In this document: piece after piece, positions 1,522 to 41,162 of the stretch | Numbering within the stretch: position 1 is the stretch's first letter | Layout: each line of letters starts with the position of its first letter | Assembly: GCA_017621705.1 (NCBI GenBank) | Contig: JAGASR010000028.1 | Coordinates: 62,001-126,000, forward strand | Length of the DNA: 64,000 nt | Reading direction: 5' to 3' | DNA from: Clostridia bacterium | Lineage (GTDB): Bacteria > Bacillota > Clostridia > Oscillospirales > UBA644 | The notes under the pieces: model-generated | What the model was told of the DNA's origin: nothing | The model's database searches: none | Seen by the model: only the letters and a program-made list of their open reading frames with translations | Made by a program: the position numbers and the translations under genes

Positions 1522-1552
1522 AAGAACTCCGAGATACTCGGAGTTCTTATTT
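1522..1552 (+). terminator. Intrinsic terminator after the GH127 gene
   Basis: A perfect 12-bp stem (AAGAACTCCGAG / CTCGGAGTTCTT) with an ATA loop is followed by a T-rich stretch, 10 bases after the stop codon. Confidence 0.9.
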
Positions 1553-1589: not shown

Positions 1590-2495
1590 TTAGGGAACAT
1601 TTATGTATTCCGGATTAAATAAACCTTCATTTTCAGTTGCAAGGAGGGTTCCGTCTGTTTTTCTTACAATAATAACAGGACCTTTTGATCCCCATTGAAA
1701 CACAAAATCTTCAACATCGGTAAATGTTTTTGCTATCTCTATTGCTGCTTCAACTTTATCAATGTTTTCATCTGTAACGATTCCCTCTGGCAAATTACCG
1801 AAGATCATTTGACCGTCTTTTGTTACCGCAACAGGAAAATCCCCGTTTCTCTTGCCTAAATCAACGAAATTAAAGATATCGAACATCTTTATGTTTTCAT
1901 GATCAAAATCTGTTCCTAAAGACAAAAGTTTTCCGTCTGATGTCAAAGCAAGAATAAAATTATCGCACATACGATAATCGACAATATCGGTCCATTCTTC
2001 CGCTTCGGGAAATTGCGGGCAGTTTAGTGTTCCGTCCGTATTTAAAACGGGATTTTCAACTTCGGTATATTTAGTCGCATATTTTGATTTTAAGCTGAAA
2101 ACTTTTCCGTTTGCGCAAAATACATCATACACTCCGCGAAATCTGTCTTGCCTTATGTCTCTTATTCCCACAGTTTTGTTCAAATCATTAATGAATGACT
2201 CTGTGATTTCTTTTGATTGCGAAAGGAAATAATCCCACTCGTCTTCTTCGTAGTTTTGCTTTATATCTTCAATCATCCGATCTTCTGCGTCTTTCTTTTT
2301 AATATCGATAATTGAACCGTCTTTCATGAAAACAAATCTTCCGCATTTGAAATCGAGAATCTGTTCCTGATCGATCGGATCAAATAAATCGATACCTGCT
2401 AAAAATGGGTCTAAAGATACGGGGATATTGTTTACCAAAACTGTATTATAGTTTAAGTTCAATGATGGCGCAGACGATAAAAGTTTAGATTCAAA
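1590..2495 (-). repeat. RCC1-like lipoprotein domain, copy A
   Basis: Single copy of the roughly 300-residue FESKLL domain. About 48 bases around 1972-2019 are identical to the matching part of copy B2 (near 3188-3235), which suggests recent duplication or gene conversion. Confidence 0.8.
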
Positions 2496-2771
2496 CAGAG
2501 TATCTTCGTCTTTATTTTCTGTAAATTCATCATCTTTTTTCTCGGAATCACGATCTTCACTGATAATCTCGTCTTTATTTTGATCTATGGATTCGTCGTC
2601 TTCATTTTCATCTGTGTTATTATCCTGCAAGTTGTCGTTTTCGGTAATGGGAGGGGTTTGATTATTATCGGAATTTTCTGTAGTCCCTTTTTCTACGCAT
2701 GAACAACAGCATAATAATAAAGCAGTAATAATGACTAAACACTTTATTGTAATATCGATTTTCTTTTTCAT
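1590..2771 (-). CDS. Lipoprotein with one RCC1-like domain
   Basis: The protein has 393 residues with a lipoprotein-type signal: a KKK start, a hydrophobic core and a Cys cluster (CCCSC, residues 21-25). An acidic Asn/Asp/Glu-rich linker (about 30-92) follows, then one domain (93-393) starting FESKLL. This domain holds short DG-x-I/L beta-hairpins such as FMKDGSIID and LTSDGKLLSLG, reminiscent of RCC1/beta-propeller blades, and a conserved PEAEEWTDIVDYR core. The same domain occurs twice in the upstream neighbour. The start has GGAG 5 bases upstream, and 24 bases separate it from the neighbour's stop, so the two are co-transcribed. No enzyme motif is seen. It probably sits on the outer face of the membrane; function unknown. 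Confidence 0.85.
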   Translation of the reverse strand: MKKKIDITIKCLVIITALLLCCCSCVEKGTTENSDNNQTPPITENDNLQDNNTDENEDDESIDQNKDEIISEDRDSEKKDDEFTENKDEDTLFESKLLSSAPSLNLNYNTVLVNNIPVSLDPFLAGIDLFDPIDQEQILDFKCGRFVFMKDGSIIDIKKKDAEDRMIEDIKQNYEEDEWDYFLSQSKEITESFINDLNKTVGIRDIRQDRFRGVYDVFCANGKVFSLKSKYATKYTEVENPVLNTDGTLNCPQFPEAEEWTDIVDYRMCDNFILALTSDGKLLSLGTDFDHENIKMFDIFNFVDLGKRNGDFPVAVTKDGQMIFGNLPEGIVTDENIDKVEAAIEIAKTFTDVEDFVFQWGSKGPVIIVRKTDGTLLATENEGLFNPEYINVP

Positions 2772-2795
2772 TCTCCTATCCTCTTTCTTTGATAT

Positions 2796-3698
2796 TTACG
2801 GTTCATTAACAAATTCGTGGTTGAAATTCGTTCCTTTTAAATTGGTTATCATCAAAGATCCGTCTTTTTTGCGGACAATAATATATAAATTTCCGCTATT
2901 CGTTTCAAAAGTGAAGTCGTCAATATCTGTAAACGCTTTTGCCTTTTCGAATTGATTATCCCAGTCTGTCTTCTGCTTTTCCGAAGATAATTGATCGCGA
3001 CTTAATAGTTCTCCGAATATGAGTTTACCATCTGCTGTAAGTGCAACAGGCATATCTCCTTGGTTTGAATCCCAGGATACAGTATCCCAGATATCAAATT
3101 TAACTATATTTTCATGTTCAAATTCAATTCCTGCAGAACGAAGATTTCCGTTCGAAGTTAATCCGAGAATAAAATTATCGCATATACGATAATCGACAAT
3201 ATCGGTCCATTCTTCCGCTTCGGGAAATTGCGGACAGTTTATTGTACCGTCTGTGTTCAAAATCGGATTCATTTCTTTCCAGTACGATATCGAATACATA
3301 TACTGAAGATAATAGACGTTTCCGTCGGCAGCAAAAACGATATATTCATCATTGTATATATCTTCTCTTATATCTTTTATGCCGACAGACTTATTTAAAT
3401 TATTGAGAAATATTTCCGTGATTTCTTTCGGGTGGTTCTTTATTCGGATATCCCATTCCTCCGGTTCGAAGCTTGACTTTAGACCGCCAATAATTTCGTT
3501 TGCCGCTCTTTCTTTCTGTAAATCAATAATCGAACCGTCTTTAAAAAATACGAATCTGTCGCATTTAATCGTTATAACTTGTTCAGCATCAATTTCTGTA
3601 TAAGGAGTTTGTTCGGAACGAGTGATATTTATTATTTTATCACCGATTTTAACGATATTTCCCAGTGAAGGGGAAGATGGTAACAATTTCGATTCAAA
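2796..3698 (-). repeat. RCC1-like lipoprotein domain, copy B2
   Basis: Second domain of the two-domain lipoprotein, from the second FESKLL to the stop. It shares long identical stretches with copy A. Confidence 0.8.
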
Positions 3699-5009
3699 CG
3701 GTTCATCTGAAAACACAGGATTATATATTATACCGTGAGGGTCGGGTCTGTAGGGTTGATATTCAATAACTTCTCCGTCTTTAGTTATCTGTTTGTAATA
3801 TTCCGAACCTCGTGTTCCGGTATAGTAACACCATAGAGAATCATCGGATTTTCTGATCAAAAAACTATTTTTATAATCATGAAAATTAAAATCAACAATA
3901 TCAGTCATCGATCTTGCCGTTTCCATTGCATCTTTCATAGTGTCTATGTAGTTCAGATCCTTTTCGGAAAGCCTTTCATAATCAACGTTCTCATCAAATT
4001 CCCCGATTATAAGGTATCCGTCGGAATGTAGCGCAATCGGAATATTCTGTTCAAAATATGTATCATCATCTTCGTAATAATACACATCGGACCATATTTC
4101 AAATATCTTGATATTATCATATTCGAAATCAATGCCTGCCGAAAGCAGTTTTCCGTCGGATGTCAGCCCGAGAATAAAATCCTCGCAAATACGGTAGTCA
4201 ATAATATCCGTCCATTCCTCAGCTTCCGGAAATTCAGGACAGTTTAACGTTCCGTCTGCTTCGAGTAGAGAATCTTCAAGCTTTTCATAATAATAAATCG
4301 AAATAGAATGTCCGTCATCTATCTTATAAACAGAACCGTCGCATGCGTAAACAATATGGGACGAAATTCCACGTTCTTTTTCATCACGAATATCTTTTAT
4401 TCCGACAGTGCGATTTAATTCAGTCAGAAATGTTTCAGTGTATTCTTTTGATAAAAATTCTTCCATCAATTCGTCAGGATCGTCGTATGGATAATATTTT
4501 GTTAAATTATTCTTATACGCTTCTCTTTGCAGATCAATGACAGAACCGTCTTTCATGAAAAGAAATCTTCCGCATTTCAACGTCAGAATTTCGTTCGGGT
4601 CGAAGTAATCGTAAATCGTTCCGCCTGAAAGTTCTGTTGCCAGACGTTTCGGAATTCCGTTAACCAAAGAAGTATAGCCGTCCAGTGATGTTGAAGAAGT
4701 TAAAAGCTTCGATTCAAAAGGCTTATTCTCATCTTCTTCAATTTTGTCGCTTCCATCGTCTTGATTTTCTTCTTCCGAAGTCTGATTTTCATTCGTCGAA
4801 TCTATGGTTTCATCTTTGTCCGTACGATCGTCTTCTTTTTCTTTTGTATTTTTAATATCCGATAAGTTGTTATCTGTAACGGAAATATCCGTATCAGAGT
4901 CCTCAATCGATTCACCGTTGTTTTCGGATTTTTTGCAGGCAAAACAGGTTATTGAAATTGCCGCAATCAATATCAAAATTTTAACTCCGACAAAAAATCT
5001 GTTTTTCAT
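2796..5009 (-). CDS. Lipoprotein with two RCC1-like domains
   Basis: Start placed at 5009 (MKNRFFVG), which has AGGA about 9 bases upstream; an upstream ATG at 5045 lacks a ribosome site and would spoil the signal peptide. The 737-residue protein has a lipoprotein signal ending near Cys25, an acidic linker, and two tandem domains of about 300-340 residues, each starting FESKLL and carrying EAEEWTDI.DYR and LTS.GKL. Copy 2 is closer in sequence to the single-domain neighbour downstream than copy 1 is, so the pair probably arose by serial duplication. The first copy also carries a Tyr-rich insertion near its end. It lies just downstream of the giant BlaR1-like sensor, all on the minus strand. 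Function unknown; probably a surface sensor or binding module. Confidence 0.85.
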   Translation of the reverse strand: MKNRFFVGVKILILIAAISITCFACKKSENNGESIEDSDTDISVTDNNLSDIKNTKEKEDDRTDKDETIDSTNENQTSEEENQDDGSDKIEEDENKPFESKLLTSSTSLDGYTSLVNGIPKRLATELSGGTIYDYFDPNEILTLKCGRFLFMKDGSVIDLQREAYKNNLTKYYPYDDPDELMEEFLSKEYTETFLTELNRTVGIKDIRDEKERGISSHIVYACDGSVYKIDDGHSISIYYYEKLEDSLLEADGTLNCPEFPEAEEWTDIIDYRICEDFILGLTSDGKLLSAGIDFEYDNIKIFEIWSDVYYYEDDDTYFEQNIPIALHSDGYLIIGEFDENVDYERLSEKDLNYIDTMKDAMETARSMTDIVDFNFHDYKNSFLIRKSDDSLWCYYTGTRGSEYYKQITKDGEVIEYQPYRPDPHGIIYNPVFSDEPFESKLLPSSPSLGNIVKIGDKIINITRSEQTPYTEIDAEQVITIKCDRFVFFKDGSIIDLQKERAANEIIGGLKSSFEPEEWDIRIKNHPKEITEIFLNNLNKSVGIKDIREDIYNDEYIVFAADGNVYYLQYMYSISYWKEMNPILNTDGTINCPQFPEAEEWTDIVDYRICDNFILGLTSNGNLRSAGIEFEHENIVKFDIWDTVSWDSNQGDMPVALTADGKLIFGELLSRDQLSSEKQKTDWDNQFEKAKAFTDIDDFTFETNSGNLYIIVRKKDGSLMITNLKGTNFNHEFVNEP
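3699..4718 (-). repeat. RCC1-like lipoprotein domain, copy B1
   Basis: First domain of the two-domain lipoprotein. It is the most diverged of the three copies but keeps FESKLL, CGR.LFMKDGS, TVGIKDIRDE and PEAEEWTDIIDYR. Confidence 0.75.
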
Positions 5010-5159
5010 TAAATAATCCTTTCTCTGTTGTTTACGGTACGGCAACGTATTTTGAGTTAACGTTCTTCCTCTTTGCTGTTTTAATTAATTAGACGAACCA
5101 AAAAGGTAAAAGTTCCAAAATCAAATATGCAGAGTTTTTTTGTTAATATGTTGTTGTGT

Positions 5160-8100
5160 TTATACGGGCAGCTGATCGGCAATTCGCCAGCCGTTTTCGG
5201 TAAGTTGAAGAACGTACCGGAAAGTCTGATACGTTTCTTCTTCGCCAACCGTGGGGCTGTTTTCTTTATAGGTTATATCGATAACGACCTCGGAGTTGTT
5301 GTTTTCCACGATATTATAGGTGTAATCCTCGGAAAGGTACCAGCCCATTCCGCCCTGCATACAATACGTAAAACCGTCAACATTGATGTAAAGATCATTA
5401 TTCTTTGTGTTCGTAAGATAGTTACCGCAGAACACGCTTGAAACAAAAGCGGTCCATTCATCCCAGGTATCGTATTTTTCATCGATGACCTTATTATACA
5501 TACCGCTTTCATCTGTAACAGAAGAATCGACTTTCATAGAAGCGGAAGAATATTCTGCGTATTTCTGATAAAGGTGAAGCTTTTCAAAAAGCTCGGCAAT
5601 ATCGGAATCGTAGATTTCTTCGGTTGCGGGTTCTATAGGCACGGGTACGGGTGCAACATAAGAAGACGAGCGATTTACGGAAAGAGTGTTATTACCATCG
5701 TAATCTTTGGAAATAACAATATATAAAGTTTCCTTTTGTCCGTCAGTTGTTTCGATATCGTAACGGTATTCATTGCCGCCTACATAAGAACAAACAACAG
5801 AAGAAATTTCCCTGTATATTTTCAATGACGGTATTATTGTTGTAACACCGTTTTGCTGCTCATTTGAATAACCTGCACCCATTTCAGCGATAAGATTCCA
5901 GTCGCCGTTTTTAATGGCAACTCTGATCGCCTCCGCCAAAAAATTCAAATTAGAGCATGTTTTCCAGGATTCCGCGCTGACTGTAAAAGGAATTTTATCC
6001 GTTCCCGGGAAAGATATATAGTTCTCAACATCAAAATAAATGACATTAGGCTCTACATAGATACCGAACGAACGCAGATAGAAACGATCGTTTGCCTTTT
6101 CGACGCAGTAAGCCAGTGACTCAGTATAGTTCAAGACATTAAACGATGCGCTATCGATCAATTTTCGGGAGTACAGATAACCGTTTTCCCCTATTTGTAT
6201 ATTAAGCTCGGTATAACCCGTATCAGTAGCAACAGAGATTGAAGGGTCTGCAGGTAAGGAAAGATATTTCTGTTCACCCATAAGCAGATTGAGAAGATTA
6301 TGGTCCCCGTCTCTGAAAGCCTGAATAATATATTTTTCAAACTCTTTCAAATCATTAAGTTTGAGGCTTTCCTCGGGAACAGGTTCGATCGGTTTTGTTA
6401 TATATTTTTCGACGTCAACAAGTTCTGCGCTCATTATTCCCAAACCGTTATCACTGAAGAATAATTCAAAACCGATATATTTGTCGTCATATCCGATAAC
6501 AATTGTTTTATTATCATCAAAAACGATCGATGTGTATTCAAAATCTTTATAAGTATCTCCGTATGACATTACAGCGACATCAAAAAGATGTTTACCGATC
6601 GTATCGAGATCAGAGGAAGTTTCGGTCAGTTTCTCGTAATACGAATCGATTTTCCATGACATTTCGCCGACCGCTGATGAATAAGCAGAAAGCGATGCAA
6701 TATATATACGTTCGAGATTATTGCCGTCGGAACTGTATTTATAAACATTAAGAATATCGTCTATACCGCTTTGTTCAACTTTAGCGGCAAATGATTTCTT
6801 AAAATCTGTCGGGAAAAGAAAAGATGTTGTTGCGGGATTATAGAACGAAACGTTTTTCGGCTCGAACCTTGAAGCATAATCCTCGGAAATATGAGTTTCA
6901 AGAAGGTTTTGAATATAGTCTACGGGATAGATATCTCCGTATTCAGAATTTGAACCATCACATTCTCCGAAGAAATACGCGAGGAAGAATTTATCTTCAT
7001 CGGTCATTGAATTCCCGTCAAAAATGCCCTTTCCAATATAGGATGCTATATTTTCGAAAAGCTCCGTAAAACGTTTTTCTCCGAAAGAAATAGGTTTATC
7101 TTCTATTAACACATCGGACGGTCCGCTTGATACGATCGGTTCCGTTATATAGACGGGAGCTGACGATGATCTGAATTTATCGCTTTCGGAAATGTTGCCG
7201 TCGCTGTATATAATTTGACAAACAGAGTCTTTTATCGACCAATCTTCATTAAACGTAAAAGCACGGACAAGAACATCATCAAGTCCAAAGGAATCAATTA
7301 CGACCTCTTCCTGATCAAATTGATGAGGGAAATTAAAACCAACGATTTCATCTTTCTCCATATCGTAAGCAGACAATACGCCTTCAGAATCGATATAGTA
7401 AATATATTTTCCGGATATTGAGTAAGATTTAATATCAAAGTTTATAATGCTCTCCTGCTTTGTTGAAAGATCCAACAAACAAAGATGGGTTTCGCCGCTA
7501 TCCGGAGTATATGTATACACAAACAAATCTTTAACAAGACGGAAATCTGAGATATTACCGTCAAAATAACGGAACATATCTGTATCGGAAAGAATACGGT
7601 TGCTGAGATTTGTTTTCATATCACGTGCATAAACAGAGGTTACATCGGGAATTAAGCCCTCATTTTCTGCATGGTAATAGTAAAAGAGATCGTTATCCTT
7701 ATCGATAAAAATGTCATCCATCAGCATACAATCCTGATAACGTTCCGCCTCACTGATACTGTTTGCGGTTATGGCAATACGGTCAACGTACACATCTCCG
7801 ACATCGTAAACACCGTAAAGCAAATAAATATAGCCTTTATGAACGGCAAAACGATAAAAAGAATTATAACCTTCGTGTGAATCAGAATAGAAAAGATGAG
7901 TATACTCATACTTATCGGAAGCAAGATCGATATACCCTATCTCATCATCAAGAAGGACATAGAGCCTTCCGTTATCGATATCTATATCGAGGACAGGTTC
8001 TTCGCCGAAGCCGAAAAGCTCTTCAACATTGCCGTCATCGAAAACGCCTGCAACAGAATAATTCCAATTTTCATCACAGACAATGGAAAATGCAACAACG

Positions 8101-10292
8101 GATTTTTCTTCGGATCCTTCCGTTACGGGAGGATTATCGGAATTATCAGTCTCATCTGATTTCTGAGACTGATAATATTCGAAATCGGTCACATAAACGG
8201 GCGAGGAAAAACTCATATATTTCGAATCCTCGATGATGCCTTCACTGTCAGCTATTTTGAAAACATGACCGTTGACATGTTGTTCATCGTCATACGTAAG
8301 AGCCCAGAACAGTACTTTTTCAAGCCCATAAGGCTGAATACTTATTATTTCCTCTTTAATTTCTGACGGGAAAGTATGCTTCGAGATATTCTCATTTTCA
8401 AGATCAAGAGCAGAAAGAGTACCATCCCTACCGATAAAATAGAGATATTTTCCGGATACGGCGTATGATTTAATATCGAAATCCAACACACTGCTTGTCT
8501 TTTCTCTTATATCACGCAAAAAGAGTGCCGTATCGCCATCGTCACTATTGTGAGTAAAGATAATATAATCGCCGAAATGAAGAGGTGAAAATATACCCTC
8601 ATCAAAGTTACGGTAAACATCGAGATCCGCAACAATGCAGGTATGCTTATCTGTATTCAGATCACGAGTGTAGACAGATACGGTTTCTTCTGAAGAAGAC
8701 TCGTCAAATTCTGATAAGTAATAATACAGAAGGTCATTTTGTTTATCGATAAAGATTTTACCCATCGGCATACAATCCTGATAACGTTCGACCTTATTTA
8801 TACCTTCCGCATTAACGGGAATACGGTCGATATGGAAATTTCCGACTTCATACGAAGTATAAAGCAAATAAATATAGTCGTCATGGACTTCGAATTTTTG
8901 GAACGCATCGGACCCCCCGTCTGCATGCCAATAGAAAAGAGGTGTATACTCATATTCGGAAGAGGTAAGATCGATATAGCCTATTTCACTCGGAAGCATA
9001 ACATACAGTCTTCCGTTGTCGACTGAGATATCTGCAATTAATCGATCGAACCTGAAAAGCTCCATGACGGAACCATCTTCGAGAATACCGGCTACGGCAT
9101 AATTAAAATTCTCATCGCTGACGATCGAGAATGCGACAATGGGAATACCTTCCGGTTCTTCCGTTACGGGAGACTGAACGGGATCTTCGACCGTTTCATC
9201 GGAAACGGAGGGATCATCGGGACCGATATTTCCGTCCTGATTAAAATCACACGCCACAATCGCCGTAACTACAACGGAGATCAATACAATAAAGCAAAGA
9301 ACGGTAATACCAAGCTTACGCACATTCATATCGAGAATATACGAAAATCTTTCTTTGAGAATACGTTTATCATTTGCAAAATAGGTAGAATATCCCTGAG
9401 ATGCGGCATGACGTGATGCAATTTCAGAGAGGATCGCTTTTGAATACTGACCGCGGTATTCCGTCGGTCTGCCTTTAACGACATCACAGTCGCAAGAAAG
9501 TTCGACCGCTTTAAAGGCATTTGAACGCATTATCCAGGCAAAAGGATTGAACCAGTAAACTGCGGAAACAACGTTCATAAAAAATTTATACCAAAGATCG
9601 CGGCGTTTGAAATGAGTAAGTTCGTGAGTAAAAATAAGATCGAGCGTACGTTCATCGCAAGAATAGTTCGAGGGAAGAACGATTATCGGACGGAAATATC
9701 CGACGAGCATCGGACCTTTTGCTCCGTCAAAAAAAGAAACAGATGCATTTTTGATATTAAGATCCGCACAAACGCTGTCAAAAACTCCGAGTATGCTTTG
9801 ATCGCTGACGGGTATACGTTTACGTAAACGAATACGGAATACAAAATATTGAATAACATAATAAAGTAAAACTGCCGCCGCTCCGCAAAGCCAGACATTG
9901 CAAGCTATTAAGGAGATTGGGATATTTTCCTTTACAGGCTGCTGAGGCTGAGGAGGCGAAGTAATCGGATAGATTACGGGCGGAGGAAGATCCTCAGGGA
10001 TCGTAACATCGACGACGGGCATCTGATCCGTATAAGAGTCAAAGAATGTCTGCTGCGCAGGCTCGGCATATGTCACTGTAACAGTGCGGTCAGGGATCTT
10101 GACATTGACCGGAGCTTCAATTGTCGGTAAACTTATCGGAAGCATCATTCTGACAGCGAGGACAAGCCATGCAAAATAATAAAGCTTTGCTGAAAAACGC
10201 TTCGAAATAAGCTTTTCAAAGAGAAGCAAAAGAACCGTTACTATCGCAGAAACAATGGTTAACTCGAGTACTGCGGTAAAGACATCGGTCAT
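5160..10292 (-). CDS. Giant BlaR1-type M56 metallopeptidase sensor
   Basis: 1710 residues; typical BlaR1/MecR1 proteins have about 350-600. Residues 1-345 are the M56 module: membrane segments near 8-28, 38-55 and 125-150, the zinc motif HELTH at 223-227, the downstream family segment AVELSCDCDVV, and a last helix at about 327-347. BlaR1 proteases destroy a BlaI repressor after sensing outside stress, and a blaI gene sits 39 bases upstream. Instead of a penicillin-binding domain, the outside part has a DFNQDGNIGPDD calcium-type loop (349-360), two copies of a beta-propeller-like region (about 384-702 and 731-1051), two unrecognised segments (about 1065-1300 and 1310-1540), and a C-terminal domain (about 1563-1707) weakly reminiscent of IseA-type hydrolase inhibitors. 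Protease call firm; ligand unknown. Confidence 0.88.
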   Translation of the reverse strand: MTDVFTAVLELTIVSAIVTVLLLLFEKLISKRFSAKLYYFAWLVLAVRMMLPISLPTIEAPVNVKIPDRTVTVTYAEPAQQTFFDSYTDQMPVVDVTIPEDLPPPVIYPITSPPQPQQPVKENIPISLIACNVWLCGAAAVLLYYVIQYFVFRIRLRKRIPVSDQSILGVFDSVCADLNIKNASVSFFDGAKGPMLVGYFRPIIVLPSNYSCDERTLDLIFTHELTHFKRRDLWYKFFMNVVSAVYWFNPFAWIMRSNAFKAVELSCDCDVVKGRPTEYRGQYSKAILSEIASRHAASQGYSTYFANDKRILKERFSYILDMNVRKLGITVLCFIVLISVVVTAIVACDFNQDGNIGPDDPSVSDETVEDPVQSPVTEEPEGIPIVAFSIVSDENFNYAVAGILEDGSVMELFRFDRLIADISVDNGRLYVMLPSEIGYIDLTSSEYEYTPLFYWHADGGSDAFQKFEVHDDYIYLLYTSYEVGNFHIDRIPVNAEGINKVERYQDCMPMGKIFIDKQNDLLYYYLSEFDESSSEETVSVYTRDLNTDKHTCIVADLDVYRNFDEGIFSPLHFGDYIIFTHNSDDGDTALFLRDIREKTSSVLDFDIKSYAVSGKYLYFIGRDGTLSALDLENENISKHTFPSEIKEEIISIQPYGLEKVLFWALTYDDEQHVNGHVFKIADSEGIIEDSKYMSFSSPVYVTDFEYYQSQKSDETDNSDNPPVTEGSEEKSVVAFSIVCDENWNYSVAGVFDDGNVEELFGFGEEPVLDIDIDNGRLYVLLDDEIGYIDLASDKYEYTHLFYSDSHEGYNSFYRFAVHKGYIYLLYGVYDVGDVYVDRIAITANSISEAERYQDCMLMDDIFIDKDNDLFYYYHAENEGLIPDVTSVYARDMKTNLSNRILSDTDMFRYFDGNISDFRLVKDLFVYTYTPDSGETHLCLLDLSTKQESIINFDIKSYSISGKYIYYIDSEGVLSAYDMEKDEIVGFNFPHQFDQEEVVIDSFGLDDVLVRAFTFNEDWSIKDSVCQIIYSDGNISESDKFRSSSAPVYITEPIVSSGPSDVLIEDKPISFGEKRFTELFENIASYIGKGIFDGNSMTDEDKFFLAYFFGECDGSNSEYGDIYPVDYIQNLLETHISEDYASRFEPKNVSFYNPATTSFLFPTDFKKSFAAKVEQSGIDDILNVYKYSSDGNNLERIYIASLSAYSSAVGEMSWKIDSYYEKLTETSSDLDTIGKHLFDVAVMSYGDTYKDFEYTSIVFDDNKTIVIGYDDKYIGFELFFSDNGLGIMSAELVDVEKYITKPIEPVPEESLKLNDLKEFEKYIIQAFRDGDHNLLNLLMGEQKYLSLPADPSISVATDTGYTELNIQIGENGYLYSRKLIDSASFNVLNYTESLAYCVEKANDRFYLRSFGIYVEPNVIYFDVENYISFPGTDKIPFTVSAESWKTCSNLNFLAEAIRVAIKNGDWNLIAEMGAGYSNEQQNGVTTIIPSLKIYREISSVVCSYVGGNEYRYDIETTDGQKETLYIVISKDYDGNNTLSVNRSSSYVAPVPVPIEPATEEIYDSDIAELFEKLHLYQKYAEYSSASMKVDSSVTDESGMYNKVIDEKYDTWDEWTAFVSSVFCGNYLTNTKNNDLYINVDGFTYCMQGGMGWYLSEDYTYNIVENNNSEVVIDITYKENSPTVGEEETYQTFRYVLQLTENGWRIADQLPV
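7140..8102 (-). repeat. Propeller-like repeat 2 in the BlaR1-type sensor
   Basis: Codes for residues 731-1051. It runs in parallel with repeat 1 from VVAFSIV to SSAPVYIT, including DNGRLYVLL, IGYIDL, ERYQDCM and FDIKSYSISGKY. Period is about 347 residues. Confidence 0.85.
8187..9143 (-). repeat. Propeller-like repeat 1 in the BlaR1-type sensor
   Basis: Codes for residues 384-702, from IVAFSIV to SSPVYVT, with DNGRLYVML, IGYIDL, ERYQDCM and FDIKSYAVSGKY shared with repeat 2. Confidence 0.85.
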
Positions 10293-10331
10293 TCAGATCA
10301 TTCCTTTCTGTGTGTGTTTGGGTTAAAGGGA

Positions 10332-10727
10332 TTATTTGTCTTTTGAAGCATTCAGTTTTTCACTGATAAATGATTCGAGCTCTTTAAGATCGGCATCGGA
10401 AAGAGCGTTGCCGTCATAAAGAGATGCAACGAAACTTTTTACAGAATTACCGTTGACTCTTTCGAGGAAAGATCTGTTTGCACGGGTGCGGTATTCATCA
10501 TGTTTAATAAGCGCGGAAAAATAACGCTTATTATCCTTTTTCTCAGCAGAAACAAAACCTCGTTCGATCAATCTGTTGAGCAAAGTCTGCAGTGCGGATA
10601 AGTTCCAGGTGCGCTGTTTATCAAGCTCACGCTTGATCTGACCTGTTGAAACAGGATTTGGCAAAGCCCATACGGCGTCCATGACCTCAAGTTCGGTATC
10701 GGGCAAAGTATCGTGCGGTTTTTTCAT
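10332..10727 (-). CDS. blaI: BlaI/MecI/CopY family repressor
   Basis: 131 residues with the BlaI winged-helix pattern: LPDTELEVMDAVWAL, then STGQIKRELD, then LSALQTLLNRLIERGFVS, followed by KRYFSALI and a C-terminal dimerisation helix pair. BlaI proteins bind TACA/TGTA dyads as dimers and are cut by their partner M56 protease, releasing the genes they block. The M56 gene follows 39 bases downstream. A palindrome lies exactly between the -35 and -10 of its own promoter, so it should repress itself and the sensor. Whether the signal is a beta-lactam is doubtful because the sensor lacks a penicillin-binding domain and no beta-lactamase gene is in the window. Confidence 0.93.
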   Translation of the reverse strand: MKKPHDTLPDTELEVMDAVWALPNPVSTGQIKRELDKQRTWNLSALQTLLNRLIERGFVSAEKKDNKRYFSALIKHDEYRTRANRSFLERVNGNSVKSFVASLYDGNALSDADLKELESFISEKLNASKDK

Positions 10728-10749
10728 AAAAAATCACTCCTTTTTTTAT

Positions 10750-10778
10750 AGTATAACATACACGCGTATGTTTGTCAA
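10750..10778 (-). promoter_or_regulatory. blaI promoter with embedded operator
   Basis: Minus-strand TTGACA (10778-10773), 17-base spacer, TATACT (10755-10750). The spacer is filled by a perfect inverted repeat, AACATAC-acgc-GTATGTT (10755-10772), as expected for a BlaI operator. Confidence 0.88.
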
Positions 10779-10859: not shown

Positions 10860-10894
10860 GAAGATGATAATAAAAATATATGGAGGTTTTCCGC

Positions 10895-12319
10895 ATGAAA
10901 AAACTATCACTATTACTCGCATTATTAATGTTTTTCACATTATTTGTTTCTTGTGCATCAACACAGCAGGAAGAAGTTTTTGACGCAGAATTGGACACAT
11001 CACATTCAATCGACTGGAGCGGAAAAGAATTTTTCATTCTTCAGACTTCCGCAATAGACGAAACCCCTCTTTACTACATCAGAGATACCATTCTTGCAGA
11101 CAATGCGATGCAGAGACTTAAAGATGTTGCGGCAAAGCACAACTGCGAGATATCTTTGAAATATATCGGTGTTGACAACACATTCAAGACCCTTATGGCG
11201 GCAACCCTTTCTTCGGGTGATGCTCTCGGTGATATAGTATTTACCGACCCGTATCAGATCCGTGAATTCGGGAACCTCGGAGGACTTGTAAATATTGAAC
11301 ACGTTCTCGATTATATTGATATTTACGATGAAACCAAATGGGGCGCTCCGAACGTATGGGAATTCCTTATGTGTAAAGGTGTTATGTGCGGCGTTGTTCC
11401 CGTATCGTGGATGCAGATGGAACCAGCAATCTTTTACCCGATCATTTTCAATCAGAATCTGACGAGCTCTTTCGGTGTTCCCGATCTTCGTGAATATTAC
11501 GAAAACGGCGAATGGACCCGTGAAAAGATGATGGATACCGTCGTTACATGCACAGATAATACGCTTGCTACCCCGATCAAAGGTATGGCGGCTTGTCTTA
11601 AGCACTTCATCCGTTCAGCCCTTCTCAATAACGGCACAACCTTTGCAGAATTTAACGATGATGTTTCCGAATACCACTGCGGCTGGGACAGCGAAGCAGG
11701 TATCGAAGCGCTTGAATGGGTAAAGAGCATTATCGATAATTACGAAGAATATATGTATGAGTTTTCCAACTCCAGTTACGGTGACTGGAACTACACAAAT
11801 CCGTTCATGAATAACGAAGCTACGCTGCTTCTGACTAAATCCGCTGAAATTTACGATAAGATCGCTTACGAAGTTGATAATTTCGGCATTCTCCCATTTC
11901 CCGCAGGTCCGTACGGCGATCCGAGCAAATACGTAGGCTTCTACGAAAAAGCTCAGACTCTTTCCATTCCTCTTTACGCAAAAGAAGTTGAATGTTCCGC
12001 TATTCTTATTGATGAGATCTTCTCTCCGCTCGAAGAATACCCCGATAAGAAATCGATGGAAGACTATTATAATTCCAACGTATTCAGTGACAGCAGAGAC
12101 TATAATATTTTCATCGAAATGAGCAAGAACTGCAAATACAGTTTTTGGCCCGACGGTGGCGATACTTTCCTTAATAACATCTACACAAGCCTTCCCAGAG
12201 CTACCCCGACGAAGATAATCGAATCGTACGGTACATCGAGTGACGAATGTATTATAGAACAAATGATACCCTCGATCCTCACGATCAGAAGACTTACGGG
12301 CGACGACACTTACAAATAA
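10895..12319 (+). CDS. Extracellular solute-binding lipoprotein, family 1 type
   Basis: Start at 10895 (MKKLSLLL) is set by GGAGG 10 bases upstream; the in-frame ATG at 10880 overlaps that site. A signal peptide ends in FVSC with lipid-bearing Cys20. The 474-residue mature shape (Asp/Trp-rich, SGDALGDIVFTDPYQI, NGEWTREKMMD, late FPAGPYGDP) is that of ABC-type family 1 sugar-binding proteins, which capture solutes outside the cell and pass them to a permease. No permease or ATPase gene is nearby, so it is an orphan binding protein here. A strong sigma-A promoter and an upstream inverted repeat suggest its own regulation. The substrate cannot be read from sequence. Confidence 0.82.
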   Translation: MKKLSLLLALLMFFTLFVSCASTQQEEVFDAELDTSHSIDWSGKEFFILQTSAIDETPLYYIRDTILADNAMQRLKDVAAKHNCEISLKYIGVDNTFKTLMAATLSSGDALGDIVFTDPYQIREFGNLGGLVNIEHVLDYIDIYDETKWGAPNVWEFLMCKGVMCGVVPVSWMQMEPAIFYPIIFNQNLTSSFGVPDLREYYENGEWTREKMMDTVVTCTDNTLATPIKGMAACLKHFIRSALLNNGTTFAEFNDDVSEYHCGWDSEAGIEALEWVKSIIDNYEEYMYEFSNSSYGDWNYTNPFMNNEATLLLTKSAEIYDKIAYEVDNFGILPFPAGPYGDPSKYVGFYEKAQTLSIPLYAKEVECSAILIDEIFSPLEEYPDKKSMEDYYNSNVFSDSRDYNIFIEMSKNCKYSFWPDGGDTFLNNIYTSLPRATPTKIIESYGTSSDECIIEQMIPSILTIRRLTGDDTYK

Positions 12320-17136: not shown

Positions 17137-18159
17137 TCAGCCCCAGAGTTTTTTATTCGGGGAGTTTGCTTTGATAGCAGAAAGATCGCCGACAAGTTCA
17201 AACGCCGCACCTGTTCCTTTTGCAACACAGGAAACAGCATCGTCCGCAACGTAAACACGGATACCGACATACTCTGCAATCATCTTATCAAAGCCATAGA
17301 TAAGGCTTCCGCCGCCGGTCATAATGATACCGTCAAGAGAAATATCACCGATAAGTTCGGGCGGAGTACGGGAAAGAACATCATGAGTCGCTTCCGCAAC
17401 AGTTCTACCCGGTTCGAGATACGCTTCCATGGTATCTTCGGAAGTGATTGTAAATTCACGGGGAAGACCTGAAGTAAGGTCTCTGCCTCGAACGGTCATC
17501 GAAAGCTTTTCGGGACGGGGGGAAAGACAGCCGATACGCATTTTAATATCTTCTGCAGTTCTTTCGCCGATGAGAATACCCCATTCTTTTCTGATAAACT
17601 TAACGAGAGCTTCGTCAAATCTGTCGCCTGCTACCTTAACGCTTTCGGAAACGACAACGTCACCTAAAGAAATAACGGCAATATCCGCTGTTCCGCCGCC
17701 GATATCGATAACCATTACACCTCTGGGTTTGGAAATATCTATACCTGCGCCGATTGCGGCAGCCATAGGTTCTTCGATAAGTTCGACAGTCTTTGCGCCA
17801 GCATTGAGAGCAGCGTCTCTTACTGCACGTTCTTCAACTTCGTTAATTCTTGAAGGGATACAAACGACGATATTCGGACGGAAGATAGAATGTCCGTTAA
17901 CACGCTTAATAAAATATTTAAGCATACGTTCGGTCGTTTCGTAATCGGATATAACGCCGTCACGCAAAGGACGGATGGCGAGGATATTGCCGGGAGTTCT
18001 GCCGAGCATTTCCTGCGCTTCTACGCCGACTTTGAGTATTTTTCCCGTTGTTCTGTCAATAGCGACAACGGAGGGTTCGCGTAAAACGATCCCCTTACCT
18101 CTGACATAGATCAGAACAGAGGCAGTTCCAAGGTCTATACCTATATTTTTTTCAAACAT
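17137..18159 (-). CDS. mreB: Actin-like cell-shape protein MreB
   Basis: 340 residues, usual length for MreB/Mbl. Actin-fold ATP motifs: IGIDLGTASVLIYV (phosphate 1), VMVIDIGGGTADIAVISLG (phosphate 2) and IIMTGGGSLIYG (adenosine). EEPMAAAIGAGI is the usual connecting helix. MreB polymers on the membrane guide the side-wall peptidoglycan machinery of rods. A good AAAGGA site precedes the ATG. It lies 12 bases behind a membrane protein gene and shares its promoter. No mreC or mreD is next to it, so it may be a paralogue such as Mbl. Confidence 0.95.
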   Translation of the reverse strand: MFEKNIGIDLGTASVLIYVRGKGIVLREPSVVAIDRTTGKILKVGVEAQEMLGRTPGNILAIRPLRDGVISDYETTERMLKYFIKRVNGHSIFRPNIVVCIPSRINEVEERAVRDAALNAGAKTVELIEEPMAAAIGAGIDISKPRGVMVIDIGGGTADIAVISLGDVVVSESVKVAGDRFDEALVKFIRKEWGILIGERTAEDIKMRIGCLSPRPEKLSMTVRGRDLTSGLPREFTITSEDTMEAYLEPGRTVAEATHDVLSRTPPELIGDISLDGIIMTGGGSLIYGFDKMIAEYVGIRVYVADDAVSCVAKGTGAAFELVGDLSAIKANSPNKKLWG

Positions 18160-18969: not shown

Positions 18970-20391
18970 ATGTACTGTCAGCTAAAAAAACTGATCTGCT
19001 GTTTAATAATAACCATAATGATCTGCTCAATGATTCCGTTGCAGGTGTTTGCTGCGCCTGATGGAATAACGGGTGGAGCATACGTTGTAATGGATGCGGA
19101 AACAGGTCAGGTGCTGATCGAAAAAAATATGGATCAGCAGCTATATCCCGCAAGCATAACGAAGATCATGACTATTCTTCTGGCGGTTGAAAACGCAAAC
19201 CCCGAAACCGTCGTTACCGTATCCCCCGAAGCTACAATTCTTGATAAGGACAAGTATTCGGACAGCATGCATATCGCTCTTACTTCCGGTGAAAACATCA
19301 GACTTGAAGACCTTATGTATGCAACAATGATCGAATCCGCGAACGATGCGGCAAACTGCGTTGCAGAGGCTGTTTCGGGAAATAACGAAGCATTCGCAAA
19401 GCTCATGAACGAAAGAGCCGTTCAGCTCGGTGCTAAAAACACTAATTTTACAAACCCACACGGTCTTCCCGACGATAATCACGTCACAACCGCATATGAC
19501 ATGGCACAGATAACGAGATTTGCAATCACAAATGATGCATTTCTGAAGATCTTTTCTACCGTTATATACGATATTCCCCCGGATAATAAAAAGACGGAAG
19601 TTCTCACTATCTCAAACAGATTTTCGATGATAAAAAAGAACGATCCTACTTACTACGAAGGCATAATCGGCGGTAAAACAGGTTATACTGTCCCTGCGGG
19701 ATATACAGGCGTTGCAGTTGCTAAAAGAGGGGATAAAACTCTCGTAGCTGTTGTTATGGGTTCAACTTCGGGTGCAAATCGTTTTGCAGATCTGAAAACG
19801 CTCCTCGACTACGGTTTCGACAATTTCGTTAAAACACCGATAACAACAACAGACGTTAAACCGACTGTTTCACAGGTCATAGAAAACGATAAGATAGTTG
19901 CTACTGTTGCTGTAAGTCCCAGTAACGATATGTATTATTTAAGACATTCATCTGTTTCAGAATCAGATGTTACATTTACTGTTGATATAAAAGATTCATA
20001 CAGCTGGTATGATATCCAGCCTACTGTAACGGTATCGGTACCCGAAAATACATATATGTATTCGCAGATCGGTTCTTTTGCTCTTACTCATACAGAAAAA
20101 CAACTCACTAACCCCATTCCGGTACAGGGAAGCACTTCAACTTCAACAGAAAACGAAACAGATAAAAAAGAAGAAGAGAAAACACCCGTTGAAAGAAAAC
20201 CGTTATCTACGGGCCTTAAAGTATTTCTTATAATTCTTGCTGTCGTACTTATTCTTGTAGGCGGTCTTATTATTGTATTCTTTGTTTCCAATGCAAGAAG
20301 AAGAAAACGCGACAAACTCAGAAGACTCAAGAGACAAGAAATGTACGAAAAATCCAGAAGAGAAATGCTCGTTTCTCAAGGCAAACATTAA
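18970..20391 (+). CDS. dacA: D-alanyl-D-alanine carboxypeptidase (PBP5 type)
   Basis: 473 residues. Signal peptide ending near VFAAP (residue 28). The serine-peptidase S11 motifs are complete: PASITKIMT (nucleophile Ser and Lys), ESANDAANC (SxN) and GGKTGYT (KTG). A C-terminal beta-sandwich follows, then a Thr/Lys/Glu-rich linker, one membrane helix (about 418-440) and an Arg/Lys-rich tail, so it is anchored by a true helix rather than the usual amphipathic end. It trims the last D-Ala from peptidoglycan stem peptides. AAGGAG stands 9 bases before the ATG. It may continue into the yerC-like and rseP genes. Confidence 0.94.
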   Translation: MYCQLKKLICCLIITIMICSMIPLQVFAAPDGITGGAYVVMDAETGQVLIEKNMDQQLYPASITKIMTILLAVENANPETVVTVSPEATILDKDKYSDSMHIALTSGENIRLEDLMYATMIESANDAANCVAEAVSGNNEAFAKLMNERAVQLGAKNTNFTNPHGLPDDNHVTTAYDMAQITRFAITNDAFLKIFSTVIYDIPPDNKKTEVLTISNRFSMIKKNDPTYYEGIIGGKTGYTVPAGYTGVAVAKRGDKTLVAVVMGSTSGANRFADLKTLLDYGFDNFVKTPITTTDVKPTVSQVIENDKIVATVAVSPSNDMYYLRHSSVSESDVTFTVDIKDSYSWYDIQPTVTVSVPENTYMYSQIGSFALTHTEKQLTNPIPVQGSTSTSTENETDKKEEEKTPVERKPLSTGLKVFLIILAVVLILVGGLIIVFFVSNARRRKRDKLRRLKRQEMYEKSRREMLVSQGKH

Positions 20392-39029: not shown

Positions 39030-40019
39030 TCATCCTATAAGTTCCCAGTAAATATCTTCGACGGTTCCGCCGTGTGGGAATGTTGCCTTGATAATATAAG
39101 TTTTAAGTGCGTCGAAGTTTACGCCGAGTTCTTCGAGATCGGAAATAAAAAACGAAACCGAATCAAAATTTTCATCTTTCAGGTTATCGTATATGCCGCC
39201 TCCCGATATTGGATAATAGACATATTCAGCCTTAATATCAGCTAAAGCATTGGAAATATCTTCTGAATCTTCAGATAAAAACCATTCCGTAAATTCCTTG
39301 ACAGTCCCCTTTTTATAATGTTCGTAATGAAATTTTTTGTATGTTGATTTAAGATATTCATAAGCTTCTTCTGACATCAGAAAAGGAAGACGGTACGCCC
39401 CAGTGTAAAACAAACTGGTTTTCTGAAATACAACATACAGTTCGGTTGAATTTTCAAATTGACTGAAATAAACAGATGACTCAAATTGTTCGGTTAAAGG
39501 ATTATACCAATATGCATCAAGTAACCCGTGCTTTGAACTGTGATCGTCTATAACGGGGATATTATAATCTATCCATTCTGTCCATTCGGGATAGCATTTA
39601 ACTTCAAAATCACGAAGAATGTACGCGAAATTTTCGGGAGCCTTTTGAGTTATATATCTATCCTGTTTATCAAAGAAATCCTCACCGTATATTGAGATTA
39701 ATTTAGTCGGATAAAGTTGCGGAACATCGGACGGAACTTCAATTCTAAAAAGTTCATGCAAAAGAATGCCGTAATAATTACGCCCGGACATGGTTGAATT
39801 CAAACTTTTAATAATGTTTTTTATAGCCAAAGTATTATCTTTGCATGTAAGATATACCGGTTCGTCTCTATAGTCAAGAGGAGTTAAACCGTCAATCTCG
39901 GAAAGATATTCCGCGAGTTCATTGTAGGTGAAACCTTTCATCTTTTTGCTTTCTTCACCGCATGAAGTTAGCGAAAAACAAAGCGAAAAGATAATTAAGA
40001 ACAGAGATAATTTTTTCAC
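39030..40019 (-). CDS. Lipoprotein, tandem paralogue 2, unknown
   Basis: 329 residues, GTG start at 40019 behind GGAGG. Lipoprotein signal ends at TSC (Cys20). It shares KKMKGFTYNELAEYLSEIDGL at the start, HYKKGTVKEFTEWFLSE and LGVNFDALKTYIIKATFPHGG near the end with its upstream neighbour, so the two are tandem duplicates. Many Tyr, Asp and Glu residues; no enzyme motif found. The gap to the neighbour is 12 bases. Likely an outer membrane-surface protein of unknown role. Confidence 0.82.
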   Translation of the reverse strand: MKKLSLFLIIFSLCFSLTSCGEESKKMKGFTYNELAEYLSEIDGLTPLDYRDEPVYLTCKDNTLAIKNIIKSLNSTMSGRNYYGILLHELFRIEVPSDVPQLYPTKLISIYGEDFFDKQDRYITQKAPENFAYILRDFEVKCYPEWTEWIDYNIPVIDDHSSKHGLLDAYWYNPLTEQFESSVYFSQFENSTELYVVFQKTSLFYTGAYRLPFLMSEEAYEYLKSTYKKFHYEHYKKGTVKEFTEWFLSEDSEDISNALADIKAEYVYYPISGGGIYDNLKDENFDSVSFFISDLEELGVNFDALKTYIIKATFPHGGTVEDIYWELIG

Positions 40020-40031
40020 GATACTCGCCTC

Positions 40032-41162
40032 CTACCCTATCAATTCCCAATAAATATCAGAAAAGACACCGTCATGAGGGACTGTTATCTTGATAATATA
40101 CGAGCGTAATTCATCAAAATTAACACCGAGATTTTTCATATCGGGAATAAACATTGCGTCACAGTCGTATTCTTCCCCGTTTAAATCCTCGGGATGAACT
40201 CCGTTTCCGTACGCAGGATAATAGATGTATTCGTCTTCAATATCAGCGAAAACGGCAGGGATCTCTTCGATATATTCACCCATGAACCACTCAGAAAATT
40301 CTTGTACCGTACCCTTTTTATAATGGTCGTATTTAAAAGACGGATATTCGGCTTTAAGCTCATTATATTTTGTTTCGGATATCAATAACGGAGCGAAGTA
40401 TCTGACATTATAATCTTCTGACGACAGCTGAGGATTTGAAAAGAGCGATATTTCCTGAAATACGACATATATTTCAGTAGCATCATCGGTTTGAGTGTAA
40501 TATTCACCGTATTCAAACTCCCCGGACAGAGGATTATACCAATAATAATTAAAATATCCGTGGGATTCATAGACTTCTGACGCCCATTTGATTCCGTAAT
40601 CGACCCACTCTGCCCAATCGGGTGAAGACCTGAATCCTGCATTTCCAATAACATATGCAATATTGTTGGGAGTAGGATTTCCTCTGAAACGCGGCTTATA
40701 ATCTTCTCCTGTATGGAATGCATCGAAAGTACGGTATTCCGGTTTGCAATCAGGTATCCTGGGATATTGCTTGGGAAGTATTGATCGCCATGCACTGGGG
40801 AACATAACTTCAATTTTCAAAATATATTTCAACGAAATATTCAAATATTGATTATAGTATCTATTAGTAATACCGGAAGTACAACTTGCTTTGATTTTAT
40901 CCTCTCCGCAGGTTATATATAAACCATCTCCGATCTCATACATACTGCCGCCTTCATAAACATATGTGCCGTCTTCTTGAAGGACATATTCACCGGGCTC
41001 AACGACAGTTTCGAAAGAACCAAGTTCCGTCAACCCATCAACAGACGAAAAATATTCGGCAAGTTCTTCATAAGTAAAGCCTTTCATTTTCTTTCCGCTT
41101 TCGCAGGAGGAAAGAAAGACAAATAAAAAAATAAACAAGAAAACAATTACGGTTTTTTTCAT
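40032..41162 (-). CDS. Lipoprotein, tandem paralogue 1, unknown
   Basis: 376 residues. Lipoprotein signal with SSC (Cys20), then KKMKGFTYEELAEYFSSVDGL. The body matches the downstream paralogue apart from an extra segment at about 45-95 (EPGEYVLQEDGTYVYEGGS). It ends in SDIYWELIG, as the neighbour does (EDIYWELIG). AAGGAA precedes the ATG. The tandem copy and a shared terminator show one operon. No recognised domain. The pair may mark a clade-specific surface protein family. Confidence 0.82.
   Translation of the reverse strand: MKKTVIVFLFIFLFVFLSSCESGKKMKGFTYEELAEYFSSVDGLTELGSFETVVEPGEYVLQEDGTYVYEGGSMYEIGDGLYITCGEDKIKASCTSGITNRYYNQYLNISLKYILKIEVMFPSAWRSILPKQYPRIPDCKPEYRTFDAFHTGEDYKPRFRGNPTPNNIAYVIGNAGFRSSPDWAEWVDYGIKWASEVYESHGYFNYYWYNPLSGEFEYGEYYTQTDDATEIYVVFQEISLFSNPQLSSEDYNVRYFAPLLISETKYNELKAEYPSFKYDHYKKGTVQEFSEWFMGEYIEEIPAVFADIEDEYIYYPAYGNGVHPEDLNGEEYDCDAMFIPDMKNLGVNFDELRSYIIKITVPHDGVFSDIYWELIG

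Follow-up and report, generated by a model that had tools for sequence, protein, structure and literature searches.

The Operon and Its Genomic Surroundings

The stretch of DNA analyzed here, in the following called the window, comprises 64,000 bp (bases 62001–126000 of contig C15) of a genome of 2.63 Mb in 42 contigs (G000). Four open reading frames, all on the minus strand, were found at the coordinates of the original prediction (Table 1). The product of the first gene matched the BlaI-type family PF03965 with 88.5 bits (cut-off 22.6) and scored under the cut-offs of the NCBIfam CopY/BlaI/MecI models, equivalog and exception alike. The second gene encodes the postulated 1710-residue M56 sensor, of which residues 7–319 were aligned to PF05569 with 145.8 bits (cut-off 31). 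The remaining two genes encode the predicted lipoproteins with three copies of an RCC1-like domain, two in the first protein and one in the second. No beta-lactamase or mecA gene is present within the operon, as also described before.

The ATG at position 5009, with AAAGGA ahead of it, is the better start of the first lipoprotein gene. Counted to this ATG the gap behind the sensor gene is 150 bp, and no promoter-like or terminator-like site was found in it on the operon strand. The two lipoprotein genes are separated by 24 bp, and a terminator follows the second one. Thus, the four genes likely form a single transcript under BlaI in this genome, as judged from these sequence features.

The operon is flanked by the convergent GH127 glycosidase gene and by a divergent gene for a solute-binding-like lipoprotein (window 10880–12319). 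In a sister species (G008) the gene order is solute-binding-like lipoprotein, blaI, sensor and convergent GH127 gene, and both flanking genes are kept together with blaI and sensor there (DNA identity of 76.7% and 75.5%). Since these flanks are 75–77% identical to the window, this is the same locus minus the RCC1-like lipoproteins.

Judged by eye from the N-terminal sequences, a MreB-like gene (17137–18159) and a D-Ala-D-Ala carboxypeptidase-like gene (18970–20391), both wall genes, are located 7–9 kb away from the operon. A large membrane protein (57427–59892), FtsX-like in its N-terminal sequence, is related to a second one at locus L040 (875–3427). The latter gene stands after the only other BlaI and M56 pair of the genome, which lies on contig C42 and has a sensor of 916 amino acids. 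Two related tandem lipoproteins of the MKGFTYEELAEYFSSVDGLT type at 39030–41162 were assigned no function.

Table 1: Features of the operon and domains of the encoded sensor (window coordinates).
Feature	Position	Strand	Basis or remark
BlaI-type repressor gene, 131 aa	10332..10727	-	PF03965, E 5e-25
M56 (BlaR1-type) sensor gene, 1710 aa	5160..10292	-	PF05569, E 2e-42
Lipoprotein gene, two RCC1-like domain copies	2796..5045 (probable ATG 5009)	-	sequence
Lipoprotein gene, one RCC1-like domain copy, 393 aa	1590..2771	-	sequence
Hairpin terminator, 12 pairs, between operon and convergent GH127 gene	1522..1548	-	
blaI promoter TTGACA-N17-TATACT	10750..10778	-	layout conserved in G008
Fourth membrane helix of the sensor, residues 326–348, KLGITVLCFIVLISVVVTAIVAC then D	9249..9317	-	fits Gram-positive lipoprotein signal pattern
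First propeller-type unit, residues about 385–705	8178..9140	-	47% identical to second unit
Second propeller-type unit, residues about 731–1062	7107..8102	-	model pLDDT, fold matches
Middle region of the sensor, residues about 1065–1300	6393..7100	-	low model confidence, no family match
Two-part domain, residues 1307–1534	5691..6374	-	common to free lipoproteins of the genus
IseA-like C-terminal domain, residues 1558–1707	5172..5621	-	PF16800 matches of relatives, profile-profile comparison
Mosaic block, about 98% DNA identity to G008	5375..6333	-	third codon positions included

The blaI Promoter and a Putative Operator

The promoter of blaI reads TTGACA - AACATACGCGTGTATGT - TATACT, and its 17-bp spacer is occupied by the perfect dyad ACATACGCGTGTATGT at 10756–10771. 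The equivalent region of the sister species reads TTGACA-AATCTACATGTGTATGT-TATAAT. This conserved layout, which is better than the one described earlier, agrees with the claim of a self-operator, and we propose the dyad as the putative operator of BlaI. A genome-wide search returned this exact site only. Sites with one mismatch occurred at three places in the genome and were no commoner than with a reversed-pattern control. The operator was also absent upstream of the third RCC1-like lipoprotein gene of this genome, of its own IseA-like gene, of the second BlaI gene and of the GH127 gene, as well as upstream of the lipoprotein genes of G008, G002 and G003. With one-mismatch sites at the level of the control and no site before the genes tested, a wider regulon through this operator is unsupported. 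The divergent solute-binding-like gene has a perfect promoter of its own, about 60 bp from the operator.

The RCC1-Like Lipoproteins

Both lipoproteins of the operon possess a lipobox signal peptide. Their three RCC1-like domain copies are 38–48% identical among themselves and showed no BLAST similarity to the sensor, in agreement with the previous description of the domain as unrelated to it. The lipoproteins scored 20.6 bits against RCC1_2 (cut-off 22), and 5 of 12 members of the family matched this model (best 9e-4). The lipoprotein model looks propeller-like, but its comparison with propellers, RCC1-like domains included, gave TM-scores near 0.2 only. The proposed RCC1 likeness appears to be real but weak.

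A third RCC1-like lipoprotein of the genome is encoded on contig C21 with no M56 gene adjoining (locus L039, 4858–6021). It carries a zinc-ribbon-like CxxC...CxxC tail, which is odd in a secreted protein. Full-length relatives were found in five species of the genus only (384 genomes of the order searched), and the contigs of the eight located outside the operon carry no M56 gene. Seven M56 proteins of more than 1200 amino acids were read, a non-random sample in which several were found via their IseA domain. All seven are accompanied by blaI; RCC1-like lipoproteins follow in the window alone and stand beside none of the other six. Consequently, the idea of a conserved pair of sensor and lipoproteins was rejected in view of the locus of the sister species, the eight relatives without M56 genes and the six other giant M56 proteins. 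Of the suggestion that the lipoproteins are regulated output or co-sensors, the likely common transcript in this genome remains, whereas the conserved partnership is unsupported. We prefer to regard the two proteins as cargo or output specific to this lineage; between the two orthologous loci compared, gain and loss are indistinguishable.

Protease Part and Ectodomain of the Sensor

The M56 part of the sensor contains the zinc motif HELTH. In a PDB sequence search BlaR1 of S. aureus (8exs) matched residues 133–345 with an E-value of 3e-9, and all matches ended at residue 345. The NCBIfam model blaR1_generic was matched partially, by the protease only (residues 12–346, 94.9 bits versus a cut-off of 400). 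Thus, likeness to BlaR1 is restricted to residues 7–346. A scan of genome contigs returned general M56 loci, none of which aligned past residue about 430 of the sensor. The ectodomain of about 1360 residues matched no penicillin-binding protein or beta-lactamase family among the Pfam and NCBIfam profiles. The sensor contains no KTG/KSG motif and two isolated SxxK motifs only. A penicillin-binding ectodomain was rejected on the basis of these family, motif and PDB searches together with the fold search described below, and the replacement of the penicillin-binding sensor stated in the original prediction was supported.

The structure model of the sensor has a mean pLDDT of 57.6. Since the whole model is weak, the propeller alone was used from it. 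The second propeller-type unit reached a pLDDT of mostly 60–89 over its first ~260 residues. The fold search with the model gave propellers (E about 1e-6), among them BamB and those of the sugar-responsive sensors BT4663 and BT4673. Prediction and fold search hence bear out the term "propeller-like". The original prediction mentions neither the duplication of this unit nor the IseA-like tip, the mosaic 3' region and the lipobox resemblance at helix 4. The sensor of the sister species, with 1375 amino acids, has a single propeller and misses the first unit. Among 394 genomes searched within the order, these two species were the only ones with the propeller.

The two-part domain matched no Pfam family. 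It shows 40% identity to a lipoprotein of 267 amino acids in G002 and is present in further lipoproteins of G001, G006 and G009, with relatives in G004 and G005. A PDB sequence search with this domain and with the IseA-like domain gave no usable match.

A block of ~960 bp in the 3' region of the sensor gene, which encodes part of the sensor tip, is nearly identical to its counterpart on contig C108 of G008, while the remainder of the gene is mostly 50–80% identical. The identity extends to silent sites, which is unexplained by selection on the protein and therefore points to a recent exchange between the species. Both assemblies are drafts, which leaves a small probability of an assembly artefact; against this stands that the flanks on either side are clearly from different species. 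No phage or plasmid source of the block was matched.

The IseA-Like Domain

By itself the C-terminal domain of the sensor stays below detection by PF16800, the family of the DL-endopeptidase inhibitor IseA. Six of 12 aligned relatives of the domain matched this family (best 6.5e-6), and a relative in G304, which is 30% identical, exceeds the cut-off as a full protein. When the relatives were compared by hhalign to separately collected IseA proteins with Pfam support, the probability was 98.1 (E 1e-13), and the branch of the window sensor alone gave 93.9 (E 2e-7). These profile comparisons suggest that the domain is distantly related to IseA.

Beside the sensors of G000 and G008, M56 sensors with an IseA-like domain were found in G257 (1382 aa), G272 (1539 aa), G334 (1637 aa), G304 (986 aa), G322 (475 aa), G162 (648 aa), and G138 and G268 (860 aa). 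Each of them is adjoined by blaI except the one of G268, which lies on a short contig. Those of G257, G334 and G304 score over the PF16800 cut-off as full M56 proteins. Since three other giant sensors paired with BlaI pass this cut-off, the sensor type recurs in the order. In a sample of 331 genomes of the class the PF16800 matches are mostly short free-standing proteins; the fusion of M56 and IseA therefore seems to be mainly a feature of this order, where three of the sampled families have it. The literature searched, of limited journal coverage, held no report on M56 proteins with IseA.

Lipoproteins with an IseA-like domain were also found in G001 and G006. In G322 an IseA-like lipoprotein sits between two M56 genes, in a row (C7, 3639–7739) of blaI, the IseA-type M56 sensor, the lipoprotein with the same domain type and the second M56 gene. 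The solute-binding-like lipoprotein family of the window, which matches no Pfam family and whose members compared are 26–30% identical, adjoins blaI in G000 and G008, a free IseA-like gene in G000, G004, G005 and G009, and a gene with the two-part domain in G006.

The Fourth Membrane Helix

In the sensor, membrane helix 4 terminates in a lipobox-like sequence. Among M56 proteins with ectodomains of more than 600 amino acids this pattern was present at helix 4 in five of nine, the window sensor included, and in 6 of 30 with ectodomains of 100–600 amino acids. For the first three helices the count was 0 of 42. Cysteines close to the end of helix 4 are common among M56 proteins without the lipobox. 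An internal start at Met322, which would yield a free lipoprotein, was rejected, no ribosome site lying ahead of it. Because helix 4 fits the lipoprotein signal pattern, we read it as a sign that M56 ectodomains derive from fusion with lipoprotein genes. The literature searched, again of limited journal coverage, contained no report of a lipobox in BlaR1.

Two other sensors differ from that of the window. One in G002 (C29, 3512–10633), with 2373 amino acids and accompanied by blaI, has a repeated ectodomain unlike that of the window sensor; a stretch of it recurs in two small lipoproteins (E 2e-8 and 3e-8), one of them in G000. The other, a BlaI-paired sensor of 1308 amino acids in G037 (C1, 6870–10796), carries BspA-type leucine-rich repeats (PF13306, E 1e-52).

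Comparison with Known Systems

With the BlaI-BlaR1 and MecI-MecR1 systems of Staphylococcus aureus and Bacillus licheniformis the operon shares a repressor of the BlaI family, an adjacent M56 zinc protease with an outside C-terminal domain and a dyad operator at its own promoter, the latter here predicted from the DNA. In contrast to these systems it lacks the class-D-like penicillin-binding domain and a resistance gene, and its ectodomain consists of propellers and an IseA-like tip. In C. thermocellum the repressors BlaI_1845 and BlaI_0696 belong to autoregulated operons of BlaI, a BlaR1-type sensor and hypothetical proteins (PMC8457756). These are likewise small self-contained BlaI regulons; they use another operator sequence, no IseA-like or RCC1-like parts were described for them, and their authors assume beta-lactam sensing.

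The secreted protein IseA (YoeB) of B. subtilis inhibits LytE as part of the homeostasis of wall hydrolysis, and phosphorylated WalR acts as repressor of the iseA gene (PMC7299342). In contrast to this small secreted protein, the IseA-like domain of the window forms the C-terminus of a membrane sensor, with a sequence too diverged for Pfam. A likeness to WalRK may be drawn in logic only, in that a reading of DL-endopeptidase activity would control envelope genes; a two-component kinase acts there (PMC7299342), versus proteolysis of a repressor in the system proposed here.

Proposed Mechanism and Alternatives

We suggest, and give about an even chance to, a regulated-proteolysis switch of the BlaI/BlaR1 type that was re-tooled for sensing of the envelope, perhaps of peptidoglycan hydrolysis; the lipoproteins would be an output peculiar to this lineage. 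BlaI would occupy the putative operator in its own promoter and hold the operon low. The membrane protease would reach outside via propellers, a lipoprotein-type domain and the IseA-like tip. Instead of beta-lactams, its most likely input would come from the cell wall or the surface, such as the activity of DL-endopeptidases or the peptidoglycan products of these enzymes; the cell-wall nature of the signal is inferred more weakly than the switch. By analogy to the family, in which signal-activated M56 proteolysis removes BlaI from the operon that it represses (PMC7593790), the signal would activate the zinc site, which would lead to cleavage of BlaI and derepression of the operon. The surface output in this genome would probably be the two RCC1-like lipoproteins, and the operon of the sister species apparently consists of blaI and sensor alone. 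A wall input into a BlaI switch has a precedent, since BlaI of B. licheniformis responds to a peptidoglycan dipeptide (PMC3305447).

The envelope switch is favored by the two protein families, by the conserved operator in the promoter spacer with its single exact genomic site, and by an IseA-like tip in place of a penicillin-binding domain. Further M56 sensors with such a domain, three of which exceed the cut-off of Pfam, and the sensor domains common to free lipoproteins argue in the same direction, as do the role of IseA in wall homeostasis (PMC7299342) and the self-contained BlaI operons of C. thermocellum (PMC8457756). On the other hand, the relation to IseA is distant and undetected from the window copy alone, binding of an endopeptidase is only predicted, and a single weak NlpC/P60 match was found in the genome. 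The propellers, taken from a weak model, could bind something else. Both conserved neighbors, the GH127 gene and the gene for the solute-binding-like lipoprotein, look sugar-related, so that the main rival is a carbohydrate or polymer sensor with glycan-binding propellers whose switch serves these genes. Their conservation with blaI and sensor in the sister species and the sugar-responsive propellers among the fold matches are in line with it. However, a separate perfect promoter serves the divergent gene, GH127 has no operator and the tip points towards the wall, and we consider a carbohydrate sensor unlikely.

Quite improbable is a conserved signalling unit with the RCC1-like lipoproteins as dedicated co-sensors or ligands, the system originally envisaged: adjacency, common strand and probably common transcript speak for it in this genome, but the sister locus lacks them, the eight full-length relatives have no M56 gene and the six other giant M56 proteins no such lipoproteins. 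An ordinary beta-lactam sensor whose penicillin-binding domain diverged strongly would explain the BlaI/M56 pair and the partial blaR1_generic match; this match remains far below its cut-off and within the protease, PDB matches stop there too, KTG/KSG is missing, the two SxxK motifs are isolated and propellers dominate the fold matches, which makes such a sensor hardly credible. Alternatively, cleavage and lipidation of the ectodomain might take place where helix 4 resembles a lipobox, which would split the receptor into two chains, a protease in the membrane and a lipoprotein on the surface. The higher frequency of the pattern with large ectodomains and its absence from the first three helices would fit. 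However, cysteines near this position are common in M56 proteins free of a lipobox, the pattern may merely record a past gene fusion, and we know of no processed internal lipobox in a multi-pass protein; we therefore doubt this arrangement strongly. Slightly more doubtful still is the wider proposal that M56 proteases of the order repeatedly captured surface lipoproteins for use as outside sensors, IseA-like binders of wall enzymes included, that the lipoprotein signal persists as helix 4 and is still processed, and that a protease together with a lipid-anchored reader of wall hydrolysis controls BlaI. If true, this would be a pathway of wall homeostasis without two-component kinases.

Significance

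Since large M56 ectodomains without a penicillin-binding part are common in the order, the locus of the window exemplifies a wider type. What makes it interesting is the tip of the sensor together with the M56-IseA combination that recurs, rather than the lipoproteins stressed originally. BlaI and BlaR1 have been studied almost solely as a switch of antibiotic resistance. The BlaI-paired M56 sensors described here have large ectodomains that lack the penicillin-binding part, and several carry an IseA-like domain. This leads to the testable proposal that reading the state of the cell wall is a job of the BlaI/M56 switch, be it ancestral or parallel, and BlaI/M56 pairs should not all be annotated as regulators of beta-lactam resistance.
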